Shown piece after piece: positions 7,709 to 58,671 of a stretch of DNA of 64,000 nt. The first letter of the stretch is position 1. Every line of letters starts with the position of its first letter. This DNA comes from Comamonas denitrificans. Its GTDB lineage: Bacteria; Pseudomonadota; Gammaproteobacteria; Burkholderiales; Burkholderiaceae_C. Below the pieces are notes generated by a model. It was not told where the DNA came from, searched no databases, and was given only the letters and a program-made list of their open reading frames with translations. Where the stretch lies: contig NZ_JAFNME010000016.1 of the NCBI RefSeq assembly GCF_017368815.1, positions 1 through 64,000 of the forward strand, in the 5' to 3' direction. The position numbers and the translations under genes were made by a program.

Positions 7709-7796
7709 CGTAAATCTCGGAATTTAGCGCCGTAAATCTCGGAATGTAGTTCCGTAAATCTCGGAATTGATCAACGTAAATTCCGCAGAATTTAGG
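7709..7796 (-). repeat. Four tandem 22-bp iterated units upstream of the AAA_14/DUF4143 gene
   Basis: The 15-mer cgtaaatctcggaat occurs at 7709-7723, 7731-7745 and 7753-7767, always 22 bases apart (about two helical turns). A degenerate fourth unit (cgtaaattccgcaga) begins at 7775, exactly 22 bases on. The block sits 14 bases in front of the ATPase start codon and reaches the stop codon of the preceding gene (7792-7794). Units 1 and 4 contain a TAAAT/ATTTA dyad. The phasing suggests cooperative binding of one protein on one DNA face; the winged-helix region of the adjacent ATPase is a candidate ligand, by inference only. Confidence 0.85.
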
Positions 7797-10692
7797 CCTG
7801 CTTTCTGCCCGCCTTCCCTTTGGTCTTCTCTTTACCTTTGCCCTTCACCGCTGGCAGCAAGCTGGTCAGGTGCTGGTAGCGCTCAAACAAAAATGCCACG
7901 CGCTCGGCATCGTTTTTCCAGGTTTTTTTGCCACCTACCAGGGCATACGCGGCATCGACGGCCGCGTCGAGCTTTTGGTGCGCCTTGAGCAGGGCGGGCG
8001 GCATGGTCAGCGGGTCGTACAGGTCGGCCAAGCTGCTGCCGGGGAACTGGGCGCGGGCATCGAGCACGGCTTGCGCGGCTTTTTCTATAGCTGTTTGCGC
8101 TTTATGGGCGGGCGTTTGAGGCTGATTTGGCTCTAATTTTTCTGGGAGATCGGGCCAGGGGAAGGTGTTGTAAACGATGGCGGCGGAGTAGCGGTAGCGG
8201 CTCTCCAGTCGCCCGCAGACAGCACGCACCCAGGCGTTGTGCATGGTGCTTGAGAGGATGCCGAAGTGGTAGAGCGTGGCGCTGGGGACAATGTAGAGCT
8301 GATTGGATGCAACGATGCTAGGCTCCAAAAACCCCATAGGTATGAAATGTCTGCGTTCCGAACTTACTGTGGGAATCGCGACGTAGTGGGTCCCTGGCTG
8401 CCTGATTTCAGCAAATACTGTGGGTGTAAGCGCTAATTTTTTGGTTGTCTCGCGGTCACGTGATGTTCGCCAATGGCGAACGGCTTCAATGCGCTTTATG
8501 ACAGAAGGCATTGATTTGAGCGTTGCAGGTGGCGCATTGAGTAACCAGAGGCACCAACGGGGTGTGCTATGCAAAAATTCTTCGCCTCCAATAAATGGGC
8601 GCAAATAGTCAGCAGCTTTCGGATCGGCTGAAAGCAGTTCTGCGCGTTCTTCGGCATTGATAGTGAAGTGCCCACCGTCCAATGCAAAACTGCCGTAGGA
8701 CACGGGCGGAACGTTGGGGAACGCATTTTTTTGTGCAGTGATTAGCAGATCAGGCCCGTCGATTAGATACGGATTGATATGCGTCGCCGGCACTGCCAGC
8801 GCCTCGCCCTTGATATCTTCATATTCAAAAATCGTCTTTTCCGCCACGTCCTGCAGGCCAAAACCCACAATCACGCAATGCACAGCGGCCTTGCCCTTGG
8901 CCTCGTTTGTCCATGAAAACGTGCGGTGGGCAAAGTGAATATGGACACCTTGCGCCAGCATCCAGCCCCACAGCACGCCCACTTGTTCCCCCTGGGTAAT
9001 GCTGTTGGTAGAGACAAACGCCACCCGCAGGGGCGTGGCAGGTGCAGGTTGGGCCGATTTGGGGGCCGCAGGCACCGTATGAGGCCCGGCCTGTGCCTGC
9101 CATGCCCCGGCCCCCTGCATATAGCGCGTGGCTTTCACGTACCAGGCTGCGACAAAATCCAACACGCCAAAGCCTTTGATGTGGCCCATGACGCACTCGA
9201 AATCGGCTTTTTGTGCAGCGCTTTGTTCTTTTTTGCCCAGGAACGGCGGATTGCCCAGCACATAGCTACAGCGCTGGGCGGGCAGCACCTCTTCCCAATC
9301 CAGCGTCAGTGCATTGCCGTGGACGATGTGCGGGCTGTTTTTCAAGGGAATGCGAGCAAAGTACAGGCCAAACTCTTCGCTCACACGCAAATTCATCTGG
9401 TGATCGACCAGCCACAGGGCCACCTGGGCGATTTGCGCCGGGAACTCTTCAATCTCGATGCCGTAAAACTGATCGACGTTCAGGCTGATGAGCTGGTGGA
9501 CATCCAGCGCTTGCTGGCCGCCTTGCCCTGAAAGTTTGTGGCTGGCACGCAGCACCTCCAGCTCCAGCAGGCGCAGCTCGCGGTAGCTCATCACCAGGAA
9601 GTTGCCACAGCCGCAGGCTGGGTCAAAAAACGTCAGGTGGCGCAGCTTTTTATGAAAGTCGAACAGGCGGTTTTTGTTGTTTTTGACTTTGTGAAACTCG
9701 GCCCACAGCGCATCCAGAAACAGCGGGCGGATGAGCTTGAGGATGTTTTCCTCACTGGTGTAATGCGCCCCCAGATTGCGCCGGGCCTTCTCGTCCATGA
9801 TGCTTTGGAACAGGCTGCCGAAGATGGCGGGCGAAATCGCCGACCAGTCCAGCGCACAGGCATCGAGCAAGGCGGTGCGCATGGTGGCGTTGAAGTCGGC
9901 CAGGGGCAGGGGCTCTTCAAACAGCTTGCCGTTGATGTAGGGAAAGGCGGCCAGTTGCTCATCGAGGTTTTTGCTGCGCTTGTCCTCGGGGGTGTTGAGC
10001 ACTTGAAACAGCTGGGCCAGGCGTGGGCCCAGGTCGCTGCCGTCTTCGCTGGTGCGCTCTTCAATGAATTGGCGCAGCGCTTGCGCGGGCTGGAAGATGC
10101 CGGTGTCGTCCGCAAACAAGCAAAACAGCAGGCGCACCAGCAGCACTTGCAGGGGGTGGCCGTCGTAGCCGCTGGCGTGCAGGGCATCGTGCAGGCGGCC
10201 CATGCGCTCGGCAGCGCGAATGTTTACCGGGTCTTGCGCCTGGATGGTTTGCACCTTGTACCCGGCGATAAAGCCAAACAGGCGCACGTGCTGGTGCAGG
10301 TCGGCCAGGGCAAATTCGGTGACCTGCCCATTGGCCAGGTCGTGTACGCGAAAGCGGGCAAAGTCGCACACCACGATGAGCTGGGGCAAGTCGCGCTCGG
10401 CAATGCCGGGGAAGTAGCCCAGGGCCTGGTCAAACGCGGCATCAAGGTTTTTGCCGCGCGACTTTTGCTCGACCAAGAGCATTCCGGGCCAGAACAAATC
10501 GACAAAGCCTTGGCCGCCGCCGTGCTTTTTCACGTTGTGCTCGAAGCTGGCCACGCGCTTGTTGGTGATGCCGAAGATTTCAAAAAAGTCGATCCAAAAG
10601 GGTTTGGCCTGCGCATCTTCATTGGCGGCATCGGCCCAAGTGCGGGAAAAGGCCAGGGCGCGGGATTTGATTTCGTTCCAGGACAGGGGCAT
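7792..10692 (-). CDS. MmeI-like type IIL restriction-modification enzyme (nuclease and DNA methyltransferase in one chain)
   Basis: A 966-aa single-chain enzyme. The N-terminus (MPLSWNEIKSRALAFSRTW) and a PD-ExK-type nuclease with D65-x9-E75-x-K77 have the spacing I recall for MmeI (D70-x9-E80-x-K82). A helical spacer follows to about residue 300. The gamma-class N6-adenine methyltransferase carries GAHYTSEENI (308-317, motif X), DPACGCGNF (357-365, motif I) and NPPF (481-484, motif IV). Target recognition probably lies at about 650-840, with a helical, Lys-rich C-terminus. MmeI enzymes methylate one strand and cut about 20 bases away, and need no separate specificity subunit. Oddities are a Pro/Ala-rich insert at about 531-554 and a repeat-like segment at about 851-869. 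The target sequence cannot be read by eye. Confidence 0.9.
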   Translation of the reverse strand: MPLSWNEIKSRALAFSRTWADAANEDAQAKPFWIDFFEIFGITNKRVASFEHNVKKHGGGQGFVDLFWPGMLLVEQKSRGKNLDAAFDQALGYFPGIAERDLPQLIVVCDFARFRVHDLANGQVTEFALADLHQHVRLFGFIAGYKVQTIQAQDPVNIRAAERMGRLHDALHASGYDGHPLQVLLVRLLFCLFADDTGIFQPAQALRQFIEERTSEDGSDLGPRLAQLFQVLNTPEDKRSKNLDEQLAAFPYINGKLFEEPLPLADFNATMRTALLDACALDWSAISPAIFGSLFQSIMDEKARRNLGAHYTSEENILKLIRPLFLDALWAEFHKVKNNKNRLFDFHKKLRHLTFFDPACGCGNFLVMSYRELRLLELEVLRASHKLSGQGGQQALDVHQLISLNVDQFYGIEIEEFPAQIAQVALWLVDHQMNLRVSEEFGLYFARIPLKNSPHIVHGNALTLDWEEVLPAQRCSYVLGNPPFLGKKEQSAAQKADFECVMGHIKGFGVLDFVAAWYVKATRYMQGAGAWQAQAGPHTVPAAPKSAQPAPATPLRVAFVSTNSITQGEQVGVLWGWMLAQGVHIHFAHRTFSWTNEAKGKAAVHCVIVGFGLQDVAEKTIFEYEDIKGEALAVPATHINPYLIDGPDLLITAQKNAFPNVPPVSYGSFALDGGHFTINAEERAELLSADPKAADYLRPFIGGEEFLHSTPRWCLWLLNAPPATLKSMPSVIKRIEAVRHWRTSRDRETTKKLALTPTVFAEIRQPGTHYVAIPTVSSERRHFIPMGFLEPSIVASNQLYIVPSATLYHFGILSSTMHNAWVRAVCGRLESRYRYSAAIVYNTFPWPDLPEKLEPNQPQTPAHKAQTAIEKAAQAVLDARAQFPGSSLADLYDPLTMPPALLKAHQKLDAAVDAAYALVGGKKTWKNDAERVAFLFERYQHLTSLLPAVKGKGKEKTKGKAGRKQA
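8085..8141 (+). repeat. AT-rich 'atagctg' dispersed repeat, copy inside the MmeI-like gene
   Basis: The + strand reads ctatagctgtttgcgctt followed by a ggcgggcgtttgaggctgattt tail. The first part matches the intergenic copy at 22346-22385 (read on the minus strand), which also starts atagctgtttgcgcttta and continues with a cgggcgttt tail. Here it lies in frame within the C-terminal part of the restriction enzyme and encodes the polar segment around KLEPNQPQTPAHKAQTAIEK. Confidence 0.6.
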
Positions 10693-12924: not shown

Positions 12925-14634
12925 ATGACTGCGACTGCTCTTTCTTCGTCCCCCGCCCAAACGTCCCGCCCGCACTGGCTGCGCCGCCCGGCCCCCATCT
13001 CTTTGTCCACGCGCGCCGTGGCGCTGCTGCTGGCGCTGTGGTGCGCTGGGCCGCTGAATCTGGCGCTGTGGCAAAAACTGTCCGCCCTGGAGGATTTTGC
13101 CGATCCCTGGGCCCTTAAACGCCTGGCCCTGGGCGGCTTGATCGCTGCGGCCACGTTTCTGTGGCTGATGCTGTGGTCGTGGCCCGGGGTGCGCCGTCCG
13201 GCCTGGAGCGCCAACCTGCTGCTGGCCGCCAGCGTGCAGCATTTCATGCGCAGCTATGGGGTGGTGATGGACAGCTCCATGCTGGCCAACAGCCTGCACA
13301 CCAACTGGACGGAGGCCTGGGCGCTGCTCACGCCTGCGCTGCTGGTGCAGGTGTTGTTGTTGGCCGGGCTGCCCATGGCTTGGCTGTACTGGGGGGTGCA
13401 GATGCCGCGCCAGCGCCGGGGCTGGCTGCGCTCGGCCTTGTGGCTGCTGGCCGCGCTGGGCGTGCTGGTTGGCGGCGGTCTGCGCCTGTACCGTGATTTG
13501 GCCCCGCTGCTGCGCAACCACACGGAAATTCGCTATTTGGTTAATCCGCTGGCCACGGTGGTGTCGTGGGCCAATGTCACGCTGAAACCTATTTTGAAGC
13601 CGAAAAAACCTTTTCAGCCGGTGACGGCCGGTGCTTCCCTGGGGGCCAGCTATGCGGCGCAGGCGGCCGGTCAGGTCAAGCCGCCGCTGCTGGTACTGGT
13701 GGTGGGCGAGACGGCACGCGGTGACCACTTTGGTCTGAATGGCTATGCGCGCAACACCACGCCGCAGCTGGCCCAGCAGCCCGTGCTGAGCTGGCAGCAG
13801 GTGCAGTCCTGCGGCACCAACACCATTGCCTCGGTGCCGTGCATGTTCTCGCCCGTGGGCAAAGAAGGCTACGAAGGCCGCAAGGTGGAGTACGGCAACC
13901 TGCTGGACATCGTGCAGGCCGCTGGGTTGGGGGTGCGCTGGCTGGACAACCAAGCGGGCTGCAAAGGCGTGTGCGCGCGCATCCCCAGTGCCGATGCCCA
14001 GGCCATTGCCACGCCCGCCCAGCGCCAGCCGTGGTGCCGCGAGGGTGAATGCCTGGACCGCCTGATGCTTGACGAGCTGGACGGCGAATTGGCCGCCATT
14101 CCTGCCGCGCAGCGCCAGCAGGGCGTGGTGCTGGTGCTGCACCAGATGGGCAGCCACGGCCCGGCGTACTACCGCCGTTCGGCCCCAGACAGCAAGCATT
14201 TTGGGCCGGAATGTGCCACCCATGTCACCTCCGATTGCGAGCAGCAAGACTTGGTGAATGTGTACGACAACAGCATTGTCGAGACGGATGCCTTTCTGGC
14301 CCAGACCATCGCCTGGTTGCGCACCCAGGAACGGGATTTCGCCCCGGCCATGCTGTATGTGGGTGACCACGGTGAATCTTTAGGGGAAAACGGCCTGTAC
14401 CTGCACGGCCTGCCCTACCGCATTGCCCCCCAGGCGCAAAAACACGTGCCCTGGGTGCTGTGGCCCGGCCAGCTGCAGCAGCGCACCGGCTGGAGTGAGG
14501 CGTGCAGCCGCGCCCAGCTCAACCGGCCGCTGACGCACGATGCTTACTTTCACACCGTGCTGGGCATGTTGGACATCGCCAGCCCCTACTACCAGCGCCC
14601 GCTGGATGCCATGGCGGGGTGCCGCGCCAGCTAA
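12925..14634 (+). CDS. eptA: Phosphoethanolamine--lipid A transferase, EptA type
   Basis: A 569-aa inner-membrane enzyme of the alkaline-phosphatase superfamily. About five transmembrane helices fill residues 28-190, then a periplasmic sulfatase-like domain: VVGETARGDHFG (metal-binding Glu262), SCGTNTIASVPCMF with the probable nucleophile Thr300, HQMGSHGPAYY, and GDHGESLGENG near the C-terminus. It transfers phosphoethanolamine from phosphatidylethanolamine to lipid A, lowering surface charge and giving resistance to cationic peptides. It is divergent from the two-component pair, as in pmrC-pmrAB loci, with a palindrome between them. The stop codon TAA merges with the start of a palindromic repeat element (14634). 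Confidence 0.92.
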   Translation: MTATALSSSPAQTSRPHWLRRPAPISLSTRAVALLLALWCAGPLNLALWQKLSALEDFADPWALKRLALGGLIAAATFLWLMLWSWPGVRRPAWSANLLLAASVQHFMRSYGVVMDSSMLANSLHTNWTEAWALLTPALLVQVLLLAGLPMAWLYWGVQMPRQRRGWLRSALWLLAALGVLVGGGLRLYRDLAPLLRNHTEIRYLVNPLATVVSWANVTLKPILKPKKPFQPVTAGASLGASYAAQAAGQVKPPLLVLVVGETARGDHFGLNGYARNTTPQLAQQPVLSWQQVQSCGTNTIASVPCMFSPVGKEGYEGRKVEYGNLLDIVQAAGLGVRWLDNQAGCKGVCARIPSADAQAIATPAQRQPWCREGECLDRLMLDELDGELAAIPAAQRQQGVVLVLHQMGSHGPAYYRRSAPDSKHFGPECATHVTSDCEQQDLVNVYDNSIVETDAFLAQTIAWLRTQERDFAPAMLYVGDHGESLGENGLYLHGLPYRIAPQAQKHVPWVLWPGQLQQRTGWSEACSRAQLNRPLTHDAYFHTVLGMLDIASPYYQRPLDAMAGCRAS

Positions 14635-14797
14635 GAACGTGTTCACAATCTCCTCGCGGGTGTGCAGTCGCGGCCTCGGGCGGTCTGCGGCGTTGCAAAT
14701 CCTCGCCATAGCTAGCGCTATGTCTGTGGTTTGCGCCTTGCAGCCCATCCCGATCCGCATCCCGCACCCCTTCGCGCGGAAATCGTGAACACGTTCT
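14634..14797. repeat. Palindromic 164-bp dispersed element, copy 1 (MITE-like)
   Basis: The element starts agaacgtgttcac and ends gtgaacacgttct, a perfect 13-bp terminal inverted repeat, and is imperfectly palindromic throughout. The centre holds a CATAGC-TAGC-GCTATG hairpin. It is clearly homologous to 57532-57693. It begins on the last base of the eptA stop codon and lies between convergent genes. A lone terminus (agaacgtgttta) follows at 14799-14810. No open reading frame in it looks real. Confidence 0.85.
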
Positions 14798-14798
14798 C

Positions 14799-14810
14799 AG
14801 AACGTGTTTA
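14799..14810. repeat. Orphan terminus of the palindromic element
   Basis: agaacgtgttta repeats the first ten bases of the neighbouring element two bases beyond its right end. Its last bases (tta at 14808-14810) are the stop codon of the azlD gene on the minus strand, so an element remnant appears to set the azlD C-terminus. Confidence 0.6.
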
Positions 14811-15149
14811 TAAAAAATGGGCCAACCACCCGTTGGCCAACACCACGCACACCCCGGTGCCGACAAACAGGCTGAGGAACAGATTGCCCCGCCACAAATG
14901 CACGGCCACCGTGGCGGCGATGCCCGCCAGTTTGGCGCTGGCCAGGGAGGTGTCGTGCAGGTCAATCATGCGCAGGCAATAGACCACCAGGATGGCGGTC
15001 ACGCCCAGCGGCATCCAGGCGTTGAGGTGGGCCAGCAGGGGCGAATCCTTGATGGCCTCGCGAATGGCAAAGGGCAGCGCCCGCAGGGCAAAGGTGATGA
15101 TGGCGGCACAGCCAATGGCCAGTGCAATATAAGGAGCATTCAGCGCCAT
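14808..15149 (-). CDS. azlD: AzlD-family branched-chain amino acid export subunit
   Basis: A 113-aa, very hydrophobic protein with about four transmembrane helices and the AzlD features ITFALRALPFAI and WMPLGVTAILVVYCLRMID. With AzlC it forms a branched-chain amino acid exporter (AzlCD, BrnFE class) in the inner membrane. The start ATG lies 3 bases after the azlC stop, so the two form an operon. The last codons and stop come from an orphan terminus of the palindromic repeat. Confidence 0.88.
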   Translation of the reverse strand: MALNAPYIALAIGCAAIITFALRALPFAIREAIKDSPLLAHLNAWMPLGVTAILVVYCLRMIDLHDTSLASAKLAGIAATVAVHLWRGNLFLSLFVGTGVCVVLANGWLAHFL

Positions 15150-22306: not shown

Positions 22307-22372
22307 TTTGCGCTTGAAAAGGCTTGTTTAAAAGATTGCTTATCTTTTAAACGCCCGTATTTAAAGCGCAAA
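22307..22372. terminator. Nested hairpins at the sco1/bcr convergent junction
   Basis: An inner perfect 11-bp stem GTTTAAAAGAT/ATCTTTTAAAC (22326-22336, 22342-22352) with a 5-base loop sits inside an outer 9-bp stem tttgcgctt/aagcgcaaa (22307-22315, 22364-22372). Right of it is an AT-rich run. It may terminate both convergent genes. No classic GC stem with U-run is present, so termination is an inference. Confidence 0.45.
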
Positions 22373-22385
22373 CAGCTATTGTTTT
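22346..22385 (-). repeat. AT-rich 'atagctg' dispersed repeat, intergenic copy
   Basis: Read on the minus strand this tract gives aaaaacaatagctgtttgcg continuing ctttaaatacgggcgttt, matching the copy inside the MmeI-like gene (8085-8141) over about 30 positions. It fills the gap between the sco1 and drug-exporter genes and overlaps the hairpin structure. Confidence 0.6.
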
Positions 22386-28708: not shown

Positions 28709-29143
28709 GTGAAGCCCACCAGACCGCCGCCGGTGCAAGTGCTGAAAAGCCGCACTGGAGGAACGTCCGGACTGCACAGGGCAGCGTAGCAGCTAACGGC
28801 TGTCCACCGTGAGGTGAGGATCAGAGCAACAGAGACGAGTTCGAGCGTAGAAGTGTCCATCATGGGTGTTCTGCGGTTCGCTGACGCAAGTCGGCGCGGC
28901 TGGCGCAAGCCAGACGGTGACGGGCGATTAGCCCGGCACGACGCAGCCACCTCGGGCGCTTCGCGCCCGAGGTGAAACGGGCAATCTCTACGCGCAGCAA
29001 CACCAAGTAGGCACACGCTGACGGGGCCCCCGGAGTGTGCGGGTAGGTGGCATCGAGCCGGTGGGGCGACCCCCGGCCCAGAGTAATGGCGGTCACGTTT
29101 GGGCAACCAAGCGCACAGAATCCGGCTTATCGGTGGGCTTCAC
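28709..29143 (+). ncRNA. rnpB: RNase P RNA, bacterial type A
   Basis: The ends pair as helix P1: GTGAAGCCCACC (28709-28720) is the exact complement of GGTGGGCTTCAC (29132-29143). Conserved core blocks are in order: gaggaacgtccggact and cacagggcag (CR-I), aacggc, then gaggatcagagcaacagaga (CR-II), ggtgaaacgggcaa, agtaggcacacgctgacggg, gagtaatggcggtcac and acagaatccggcttat (CR-V). The 435-base length fits the family. It is the catalytic subunit that matures tRNA 5' ends. A GATAAT hexamer (28696-28701) sits 7 bases before the predicted 5' end as a likely -10 box. The space 28585-28708 otherwise holds only the divergent cysK promoter region. Confidence 0.95.
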
Positions 29144-29217
29144 ATTTTTACTGACGGCTGAAGCACAGGTGACTGCCCAGGCAGCTTTTGTGCCTGGGTT
29201 GGGCAAATAATCCTCCC

Positions 29218-57356: not shown

Positions 57357-57533
57357 ATGCTGATTTTTCGTTGGTTGGTGCTGTTTTTGTTGCTGGGGGC
57401 GGCGCTGTCGTTTGCGTTTTATCTGGGCACAGGCCGCGTTTATTTCAAACGCTGGGCGCTGTTGATTTTGAAGTGGAGTGTGATTGCGGGCATCAGCTTT
57501 TTTGCCGTGCTGATGCTGGGCCGCATTGTTTAG
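57357..57533 (+). CDS. Small hydrophobic membrane protein (58 aa)
   Basis: ATG 57357 opens a 58-codon frame preceded by AGGAG (57347-57351). The product starts MLIFRWLVLFLLLGAALSFA and contains two predicted transmembrane helices (about 5-24 and 38-56) joined by a short basic loop (RVYFKRW). No catalytic residue is visible. It follows lpxC by 24 bases and is likely cotranscribed. The TAG stop (57531-57533) overlaps the start of the palindromic repeat element. Confidence 0.7.
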   Translation: MLIFRWLVLFLLLGAALSFAFYLGTGRVYFKRWALLILKWSVIAGISFFAVLMLGRIV

Positions 57534-57693
57534 AACGTGTTCACGATCTCCTCATGGGTGTGCGGGCGCGGCTTCGGGCGGTCTGCGTCGTTGCAAATCC
57601 TCGCAATAGCCAAGCTATTGCTGTGGTTTGCGCCTCACAACCCATCCCGAACCGCATCCCCCACACCTTCATTCGAGATCATGAACACGTTCT
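57532..57693. repeat. Palindromic 162-bp dispersed element, copy 2 (MITE-like)
   Basis: It begins agaacgtgttcac and ends atgaacacgttct, with the same order of conserved blocks as 14634-14797 (cgggcggtctgcg, ttgcaaatcctcgc, tgtggtttgcgcc, cccatcccga). The central hairpin is CAATAGC-CAA-GCTATTG, replacing CATAGC/GCTATG of copy 1 with pairing kept. It overlaps the stop codon of the small membrane protein and lies between convergent genes. Confidence 0.85.
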
Positions 57694-57732
57694 TAGCCAG
57701 GCGGTGCCTTGGCGGGTGATTCAGCGGGTGAT

Positions 57733-58671
57733 TTATTGCAGCCCATTGCGCCGCGCCAGTTCGGCAAACAGGCCGCTGTGGTCGAGCTGGTCAAAGCCAT
57801 GTTCCACGGCGCTGGTGTAGAGCTGGGCGAAAAAATCGGTAATCGGCACCTCTAGCCCCACTTCTGCCGCAGTCGTTTGCGCATTGCGCAGGTCTTTGAG
57901 CTGCACGCCCATGCGGGCCCCAGGGGCAAAGTTGCGCTGCACCATGCGCTGGCCGTGCAGTTGCAGGATGCGGCTGTCGGCAAAGCCGCCGGTGATGGCT
58001 TCGCGCACTTTGGCCGGGTCGGCCCCGCCTTGTTCGCACAGCAGCAGGGCTTCGGCCACGGCGCCGATGGTGATGCCCACAATCATTTGGTTGGCCAGCT
58101 TGGCCAGTTGCCCGCTGCCGTGGGGGCCCACATGGGTGGCACGGCCTAAAACATTAAAAATAGGAGCTGCTTGCGCTGCATCTTCAACATCTCCACCGAC
58201 CATGATTGCCAAAGTGCCCGCCTCTGCACCGACAGTACCTCCTGAAACAGGAGCATCCAGGTGCCGCACGCCTTGCGTCTGCAGGCGTTGGGCGTGCGCA
58301 CGGGCTTGGCGCGGCTGGATGGAGGCCATGTCGATCACCAGGCTGCCGCTGGCCAGGCCGTGGCAGGCGCTGTCCGCGCCCAGGCCAAACAGCACCTGCT
58401 CGACCACATCGCCGTTTTCCAGCAGGCTGAGCGTGATGTCGGCCCCGGTGCAAGCTTGGCGCGGGGTGGCGCAAATGACGGCTCCATCTGCGGCCAAGAC
58501 TTCGGCCTTGGCCTGAGTGCGGTTCCAGACGCGCACCGGGTAACCGGCTTGGGCCAAGCGCCGGGCCATGGGCAGGCCCATGTTGCCGGTGCCCAGCAGG
58601 CACAGGGTCAGAGGGGAGGGGGGCAAGGTGGCGAGGGTGGGCATGGTGTGTAAGGTGTTGTGGGTGTGCAA
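57733..58671 (-). CDS. NAD(P)-dependent beta-hydroxyacid dehydrogenase (HIBADH/GarR family)
   Basis: A 312-aa dehydrogenase; ATG 58671 or 58644. The Rossmann core LCLLGTGNMGLPMARRLAQA, DAPVSGGTVGAEAGTLAIMV and the catalytic GSGQLAKLANQM (Lys about 193) are family signatures. Members reduce tartronate semialdehyde, 3-hydroxyisobutyrate or succinate semialdehyde; the substrate is not evident. A segment at 58150-58190 (+ strand) resembles the dispersed AT-rich repeat. It is 12 bases after the ABC exporter gene on the same strand. Confidence 0.9.
   Translation of the reverse strand: MHTHNTLHTMPTLATLPPSPLTLCLLGTGNMGLPMARRLAQAGYPVRVWNRTQAKAEVLAADGAVICATPRQACTGADITLSLLENGDVVEQVLFGLGADSACHGLASGSLVIDMASIQPRQARAHAQRLQTQGVRHLDAPVSGGTVGAEAGTLAIMVGGDVEDAAQAAPIFNVLGRATHVGPHGSGQLAKLANQMIVGITIGAVAEALLLCEQGGADPAKVREAITGGFADSRILQLHGQRMVQRNFAPGARMGVQLKDLRNAQTTAAEVGLEVPITDFFAQLYTSAVEHGFDQLDHSGLFAELARRNGLQ

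Follow-up and report, generated by a model that had tools for sequence, protein, structure and literature searches.

Results

Two palindromic repeats and their gene neighbors

We analyzed a 64,000-nucleotide stretch of Comamonas denitrificans DNA (the window; C8:1-64000 of genome G000, which comprises 3.0 Mb in 74 contigs), and genes were called with a simple caller of our own. Two related repeats were located with the following features, the element edges being set by alignment of genomic copies.

12925..14634, plus strand: EptA/EptB-like phosphoethanolamine transferase gene (Sulfatase + EptA_B_N), with its 3' end on the duplication
14632..14634, plus strand: left target triplet of copy 1, TAA, the stop codon of the EptA-like gene
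14635..14796, plus strand: MITE copy 1, subfamily A, 162 bp, GAACGTGTT...AACACGTTC
14707..14722, plus strand: central hairpin of copy 1, CATAGC-TAGC-GCTATG
14797..14799, plus strand: right target triplet of copy 1, TCA, unlike the left TAA (one of 9 unequal pairs among 41 copies)
14800..14810, plus strand: partial extra element end, GAACGTGTTTA, directly 3' of copy 1
14808..15149, minus strand: AzlD-like gene, convergent neighbor of copy 1
57357..57533, plus strand: 58-codon hydrophobic ORF downstream of lpxC, its TAG stop completed by copy 2
57530..57532, plus strand: left target duplication of copy 2, TTA
57533..57692, plus strand: MITE copy 2, subfamily B, 160 bp
57603..57621, plus strand: central hairpin of copy 2, GCAATAGC-CAA-GCTATTGC
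57693..57695, plus strand: right target duplication of copy 2, TTA, identical to the left
57733..58671, minus strand: 3-hydroxyisobutyrate-dehydrogenase-like (NAD-binding) gene, convergent neighbor of copy 2

The 58-codon ORF gave no Pfam match; the TA of the left TTA and the first G of copy 2 together form its stop codon (TAG, 57531-57533). The partial end beyond copy 1 overlaps the stop codon (TAA, minus strand) of the AzlD-like gene. A sequence-only reading of this DNA had described two homologous repeats, with edges that included one flanking base per side, and had assigned to them terminal inverted repeats of the 13-bp class, central hairpins that differ in sequence yet still pair, and a start on the upstream stop codon between convergent genes. 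All of this was borne out for the two window copies. On the basis of 41 aligned genomic copies, the element proper is GAACGTG...CACGTTC, within which the terminal inverted repeats comprise 12 (copy 1) and 11 (copy 2) terminal pairs, or 13 and 12, respectively, when one flank pair is included. Each window copy folded over its full length as a single long imperfect hairpin, with RNA folding energies of -82.1 (copy 1) and -85.0 kcal/mol (copy 2). The end motif, searched in the window with up to three mismatches, gave 4 matches in comparison to 0.02 expected. Given this excess and the presence of at least 41 full copies in the genome, chance is excluded as the origin of the repeats.

Other features of the window were also recorded. 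The RNase P RNA (class A) at 28711-29145 was the only Rfam match in the window at the gathering score, and no Rfam family matched the element at that score. Three copies of a repeat with a 22-bp period (CGTAAATCTCGGAAT...) occupy positions 7709-7781, just upstream of a 413-aa minus-strand ORF. A 31-nt dispersed inverted pair (8087-8117 and 22349-22379; 87% complementary; ATAGCTGTTTGCGCTTTATGGGCGGGCGTTT) is possibly another dispersed repeat family.

The repeats belong to a recently multiplied mobile family

The search for more copies that the sequence-only reading had proposed was carried out with each window copy as query. In the genome, the full copies number at least 41 and fall into two subfamilies (with 40 candidates scored per query, each gave 40 places, 41 in the union, which is a lower bound). 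Ten copies were 96-100% identical to copy 1 and 30 were 96-100% identical to copy 2, with the subfamilies being ~85% alike. One copy (L011, G000:C24:18363-18525), 95% identical to copy 1 and 90% to copy 2, looks like a mosaic between the subfamilies, as if recombined or gene-converted. Among the subfamily A copies (L001-L010, 96-100% identical to copy 1), the central four-base loop was TAGC, TAGT, TACC, or TACG; this variation among near-identical copies suggests that the loop may evolve more quickly than the stem does.

TNA triplets flanked 40 of the 41 full copies on both sides and were identical in 32 of the 41 (TAA/TAA in 21, TTA/TTA in 8, TCA/TCA in 2, and TGA/TGA in 1); the probability of obtaining 32 identical pairs among 40 by chance, calculated from the triplet frequencies, was 1.3e-5. 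Because these triplets are direct rather than inverted repeats, they are target duplications that lie outside the palindrome. In the 32 restored targets, the triplet was preceded by C and followed by G in 77% of symmetrised positions. The element inserts mostly at C/TNA/G (slashes bound the triplet), with TNA being duplicated.

Orthologous loci of relatives were empty. Copy 2 was absent at G005:C200 and G012:C26 and copy 1 was absent at G012:C68, with the flanking genes aligning on both sides; conservation was poor among the few bases of intergenic sequence at the insertion site. In both G005 and G012, the gene upstream of copy 2 terminates at the aligned position with a TAG of its own. The sequence-only reading had taken the paired differences as a sign of selection for structure rather than of recent copying, and this part of it found no support: apart from the mosaic, copies are 96-100% identical within subfamilies, their targets are duplicated, and orthologous sites are empty. 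The element is a recently multiplied mobile family. Both window repeats are copies of this one non-autonomous palindromic family, a MITE, and at 160-162 bp the element is too short for a transposase.

A probable partner insertion sequence of the IS5 family

An 842-bp insertion sequence (IS) flanked by TAA on both sides (G000:C14:23412-24253) lies directly beside a MITE copy. Its terminal sequence, GAACGTGTTCA, has a terminal 11 bp identical to that of the MITE, and its ends read GAACGTGTTCAAAGTCTC in comparison to GAACGTGTTCAYGATYTC in most MITE copies. Two overlapping frames of this IS match NF033580 (IS5-family transposase) and PF13340/PF01609 (DUF4096 + DDE). ORF 2 scored 144.8 against the NF033580 cut-off of 110, the N-terminal ORF 1 scored 97.4 and is by itself under that cut-off, and the PF13340 and PF01609 matches were over theirs. 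The frames overlap near a run of seven A residues, so a programmed frameshift is likely. A second IS copy starts at C8:75433, beside a 65-bp short MITE copy, and runs off the end of the contig that holds the window. Relatives of the IS were carried by 15 of 53 genus genomes, own genome included; the ends of those fetched mostly fit GA[AG]C[CG]TGTT with TNA flanks, and an IS fragment of one relative (G005, L220) ends in GAACGTGTTTACGATCTC, one base from the MITE end. Beyond the terminal ~12-21 bp, no similarity was found between the MITE and IS interiors (the IS slice was offset by 2-3 bases at the ends). Derivation of the MITE by internal deletion of the partner IS was rejected since the interiors are unrelated. 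On the basis of the shared ends, the two-frame IS5-family transposase (DUF4096 + DDE) would most likely move the MITE in trans.

Full copies are concentrated on stop codons

Placement of the copies was not random. The stop codon of a neighboring gene was abutted by 28 of the 41 full copies in comparison to 9.7 expected (P = 1.7e-9), the expectation being derived from context-matched TNA sites in non-coding sequence of the window and its flanks; 32% of the sampled CTNAG sites, 13.5% of YTNAR sites, and 10.9% of other sites were on stops. The abutting stops were TAA (17) and TGA (2) within the duplication and TAG (10) composed of the TA of the duplication and the first G of the element, with one full copy abutting two stops. 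When genes were called on the restored sequences, 19 of the 28 stops were found to pre-date the insertion. For 7 of the 28, unequal triplets made the restoration ambiguous, and for 2 (L032 and L041) the restored frame reads on; the latter stops may have been created by insertion. The restored insertion point was inside a called ORF for 5 of the 32 equal-triplet copies, L032 (G000:C1:61130-61291) and L041 (G000:C23:140927-141087) among them, and gene truncation is possible at these two sites.

A local test on equal-triplet copies, from which those with unequal triplets (9 of the 41 full copies and 4 of the 29 solo 16-bp units described below) and then those inside called ORFs (5 and 2, respectively) were set aside, again gave an excess on stops (19 of 27 versus 8.15 expected, P = 8e-8). 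Restricted to CTNAG sites, it gave no stop excess, with 12 observed and 12.5 expected of 15 full copies and 9 observed and 7.83 expected of 10 solo units. This result speaks against active targeting of stop codons, with little power because most gaps hold few CTNAG sites.

The gene contexts of the 41 full copies were 28 tandem, 11 convergent, 0 divergent, and 2 undetermined. Nearby element-free gaps were tandem, convergent, and divergent in 24, 6, and 6 cases in the window (n = 36) and in 33, 11, and 17 cases in the flanks (n = 61). Thus none of the 39 classified full copies was in a divergent gap, the share of such gaps nearby being 6 of 36 (window) and 17 of 61 (flanks). The placement at convergent 3' ends that the two window copies had suggested does not extend to the family: specificity of full copies for convergent genes was rejected, with 11 of 39 classified sites in comparison to 6 of 36 and 11 of 61 nearby gaps being convergent.

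With a stop codon as the target, the upstream gene would be unharmed by insertion. A TAA or TGA stop is restored because TNA is duplicated, and a TAG stop is rebuilt with the initial G of the element. Insertions on stops would be silent for the upstream gene, so that full copies accumulate there and at gene 3' ends. Active targeting of stop codons is the other way to account for the excess; we infer instead a C/TNA/G preference combined with removal of harmful insertions, that is, purifying selection.

Shortened copies and 16-bp stubs

The genome also contains shortened copies of 115, 65, 65, and 56 bp, each of which keeps both ends and is flanked by equal duplications (4 of 4); the 115-bp copy is in a divergent gap. 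Still shorter are units of 16 bp that are flanked by TNA triplets and mostly read GAACGTGTTCAYGATC or GAACGTGTTCACGTTC. The 16-bp pattern gave 100 matches in G000 at up to one mismatch, some of them being ends of full copies, and the reversed pattern gave 0 matches in the same genome. We examined 29 solo units from this genome outside the window (L332-L357 and L361; the same places appear in L284 and L289-L300). Identical triplets flanked 25 of the 29; 20 abutted a stop codon, 19 of these being confirmed on restored sequence; 15 were in convergent gaps, more often than full copies, and 2 were in divergent gaps. For stub L352, the four aligned relatives lack the insert, and a stop codon occupies the site. 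For stub L349, the insert is missing both from G005, which has the stop, and from G012, which shows no stop there; G024 was unaligned at this place. The 16-bp units equal two element ends fused via CACG or TCT microhomology and are therefore probably deletion scars of former full copies. The alternative is that they are ultrashort elements rather than scars.

The element interior covaries across Burkholderiales

The element or its core was present in 25 of 41 genomes searched, own genome included. Among the matches listed, Burkholderiales with the element or its core include Comamonas, Acidovorax, Xylophilus, Tibeticola, Simplicispira, Giesbergeria, Ottowia, Hylemonella, Roseateles, Variovorax, and Rhodoferax. 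Six of 72,556 plasmid records (Cupriavidus, Comamonas, and Mitsuaria) matched over 31-56% of the query, in the core only, and there were 0 matches among 50,697 phage records.

For the analysis of covariation, which the sequence-only reading had put forward from two copies, 202 core matches (overlapping loci included) were reduced to 67 representatives of <93% identity, of which 61 were aligned and 6 with large indels were left out. In a 41-pair structure, 87.8% of cells paired versus a shuffled mean of 79.1, both-sided change affected 26 of 41 pairs versus 16.3 shuffled, and 205 cells showed such change versus 72.7 shuffled. The covariation score was 0.239 in comparison to 0.102 for shuffles, which do not remove relatedness, and at most 0.099 for slid versions, over which the structure is favored, above all on cells paired, by having been drawn from one of the aligned sequences. 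RNAalifold alone gave no more than 17 pairs, all of them inner; 6 of these changed on both sides, and the covariation term was -1.01 kcal/mol. The central pair (columns 51-66) was C-G in 33, A-U in 17, and G-C in 10 of the 61 sequences. The covariation stands above both shuffled and slid controls; it is genuine and a property of the whole element family. The interior core was more conserved than expected of neutral filler. Conservation of the left half-core is partly by construction, the loci having been found by an exact 26-base pattern from it; the right half is outside that pattern and is conserved too.

DNA palindromes undergo template-switch correction, and the covariation could have arisen from such quasipalindrome correction copying one arm onto the other rather than from selection. 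The many both-sided changes in the outer arms, and arm sequences that differ between families yet pair, are as this process would leave them. The inner core, however, keeps non-pairing T-G combinations (columns 37-81 in 58 of 61 sequences and columns 44-74 in 59 of 61) that correction would erase, and the conservation of the right half-core also argues against it. We regard template switching as a credible explanation, though one short of even odds. The arms appear to stay complementary at the DNA level, through selection or through template-switch correction.

The same core occurs with other ends

Among 121 loci scanned, 40 elements of 147-162 bp between end motifs were parsed (some loci being the same place fetched twice), with ends GGATSCTCTG in 19, AACGCTGAA in 12, GAACSTGTT in 5, and GAACCTCTG in 4. 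Elements of every type except GAACSTGTT often had CTAG, TTAG, or TTAA as flanks. Two end types coexist in G012, where a search for an IS that could partner the GGATSCTCTG ends gave no candidate; the one DDE_Tnp_1 match there was without the sought ends. Core matches with yet other ends were present in more distant genomes (L089 and L090). Longer elements (268-348 bp by inverted-repeat scan; L104, L106, L110, L142, L148, L155, L162, L166, and L167) with the same core and similar ends were seen in Comamonas, Acidovorax, and other Burkholderiaceae records, and Comamonas-genus loci among L076-L088 contain an extra segment bearing TGCACCGGGGTGCAAGC-like inverted repeats.

The conserved covarying core of ~75-90 bp could be the real heritable unit, a functional hairpin passed among several IS5-type systems across Burkholderiales by swapping or remodelling of its ends (GAACSTGTT, GGATSCTCTG, AACGCTGAA, and GAACCTCTG) and spreading silently via stop insertion. 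Gradual divergence is as possible as end exchange, since GGATSCTCTG, AACGCTGAA, and GAACCTCTG resemble one another, and we offer the heritable-core proposal tentatively, as rather doubtful. Its possible roles would be a DNA structure for host-factor binding or use in transposition, and if it were true the 16-bp stubs would be excision footprints or extraordinarily small mobile units.

A host function of the hairpin

The sequence-only reading had concluded that DNA or RNA structure is under selection. Its basis, the covariation, is genuine; an RNA made from one fixed strand is disfavored by the random orientation of the copies. A structure kept by the host at gene ends, for example a bidirectional transcription terminator or a protector of mRNA 3' ends, would suit copies located at 3' ends, a covarying hairpin that is very stable on either strand, and the terminator-like scores of both window central hairpins. 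Against it, the target duplications and empty sites indicate arrival by insertion, and the copies are near-identical within subfamilies. Terminator-like matches barely exceeded shuffles (3 versus 0.6 and 3 versus 1.0, one of the three matches per region being the central hairpin) and had a weak T-run tail, and a strong terminator could be costly at the tandem sites, which make up 28 of 39 classified sites. Tandem copies showed no strand bias (14 in the same and 14 in the opposite direction to transcription; 12 and 15, respectively, for stop-abutting copies), and G-U and A-C departures in the outer arms numbered 62 and 55, favoring neither RNA strand there. The lack of strand bias and the near-equal departures speak for structure at the DNA level. 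We consider a host-kept structure unlikely. An inner-stem G-U excess, a possible sign of fixed-strand RNA, came from a structure drawn on the plus strand and carries no claim; for only 11 of the 61 representatives, and for a single one of the 41 own-genome copies, was the plus strand the better-folding one.

Discussion

The results taken as a whole are best explained by a palindromic MITE, probably IS5-dependent, that inserts mostly at C/TNA/G and rebuilds stop codons, a reading to which we assign a probability of about 0.9. An element of the REP/REPIN type, mobilized by a RAYT tyrosine transposase, would also be palindromic, mostly extragenic, and of high copy number, but REPs measure 20-40 bp and carry a GTAG or CGTC tag according to the available text of PMC3733652, whereas the unit here is 160-162 bp (GAACGTG...CACGTTC) with 3-bp TNA duplications and ends common to a DDE IS5-family element, which makes that origin extremely improbable.

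The element is of a known kind in an unusual form, a palindromic MITE that is probably IS5-dependent and is seated largely on stop codons. MITEPsy1 of Pseudomonas syringae, listed in the available text of PMC3189936 with 100 bp, 18-bp repeats, the entry "IS5?", a 4-nt duplication, and 6 copies, represents bacterial MITEs that are likewise short and multicopy, with terminal inverted repeats, target duplication, and a presumed IS5-type link. The Comamonas element differs from it in its whole-length hairpin, conserved covarying core, TNA duplication, stop placement, and number of full copies (at least 41). Correia elements, RUP, CIR, and other small bacterial mobile repeats are similar in being ~100-160 bp, dispersed, and non-autonomous, as described in the available text of PMC2229807. 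The terms IS5, TNA, Burkholderi-, Comamonas, and hairpin are absent from the main text of that source in its available form, and its three passages with "stop codon" concern stops inside repeats, unlike the insertion at stops here. The partner IS and its genus relatives, which belong with the IS5 family (NF033580 type), share MITE-type ends and TNA flanks, whereas the MITE is without a transposase and has an unrelated interior. NuwaII, a eukaryotic element of the PHIS superfamily, has the same C/TNA/G target; the available text of PMC4482050 compares NuwaII transposases with bacterial IS5 and gives the bacterial IS5 target as ANT, whereas the IS5-linked target here is TNA. The words "stop codon" do not occur in the available text of a paper on IS-gene orientation (PMC9208149). 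In the literature searched, whose scope left subscription journals mostly outside, we found no account of this family or of stop-rebuilding MITEs. What is unusual about this family is that it rebuilds stop codons, keeps a conserved covarying core beneath several types of ends, and is accompanied by 16-bp stubs.

Why a non-coding element would keep interior structure at all is a question posed by the covarying core that differing ends have in common. The size series of 162/160, 115, 65, 56, and 16 bp provides a natural record of how long palindromes in bacterial chromosomes may decay. For the stop excess, which extends to stubs as well as full copies, targeting and selection are separable in principle by a transposition assay. 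The C/TNA/G target and the end base G together can rebuild all three stop codons, which makes this family a concrete case of a near-harmless transposable element, one whose stop placement lets it spread with little harm.
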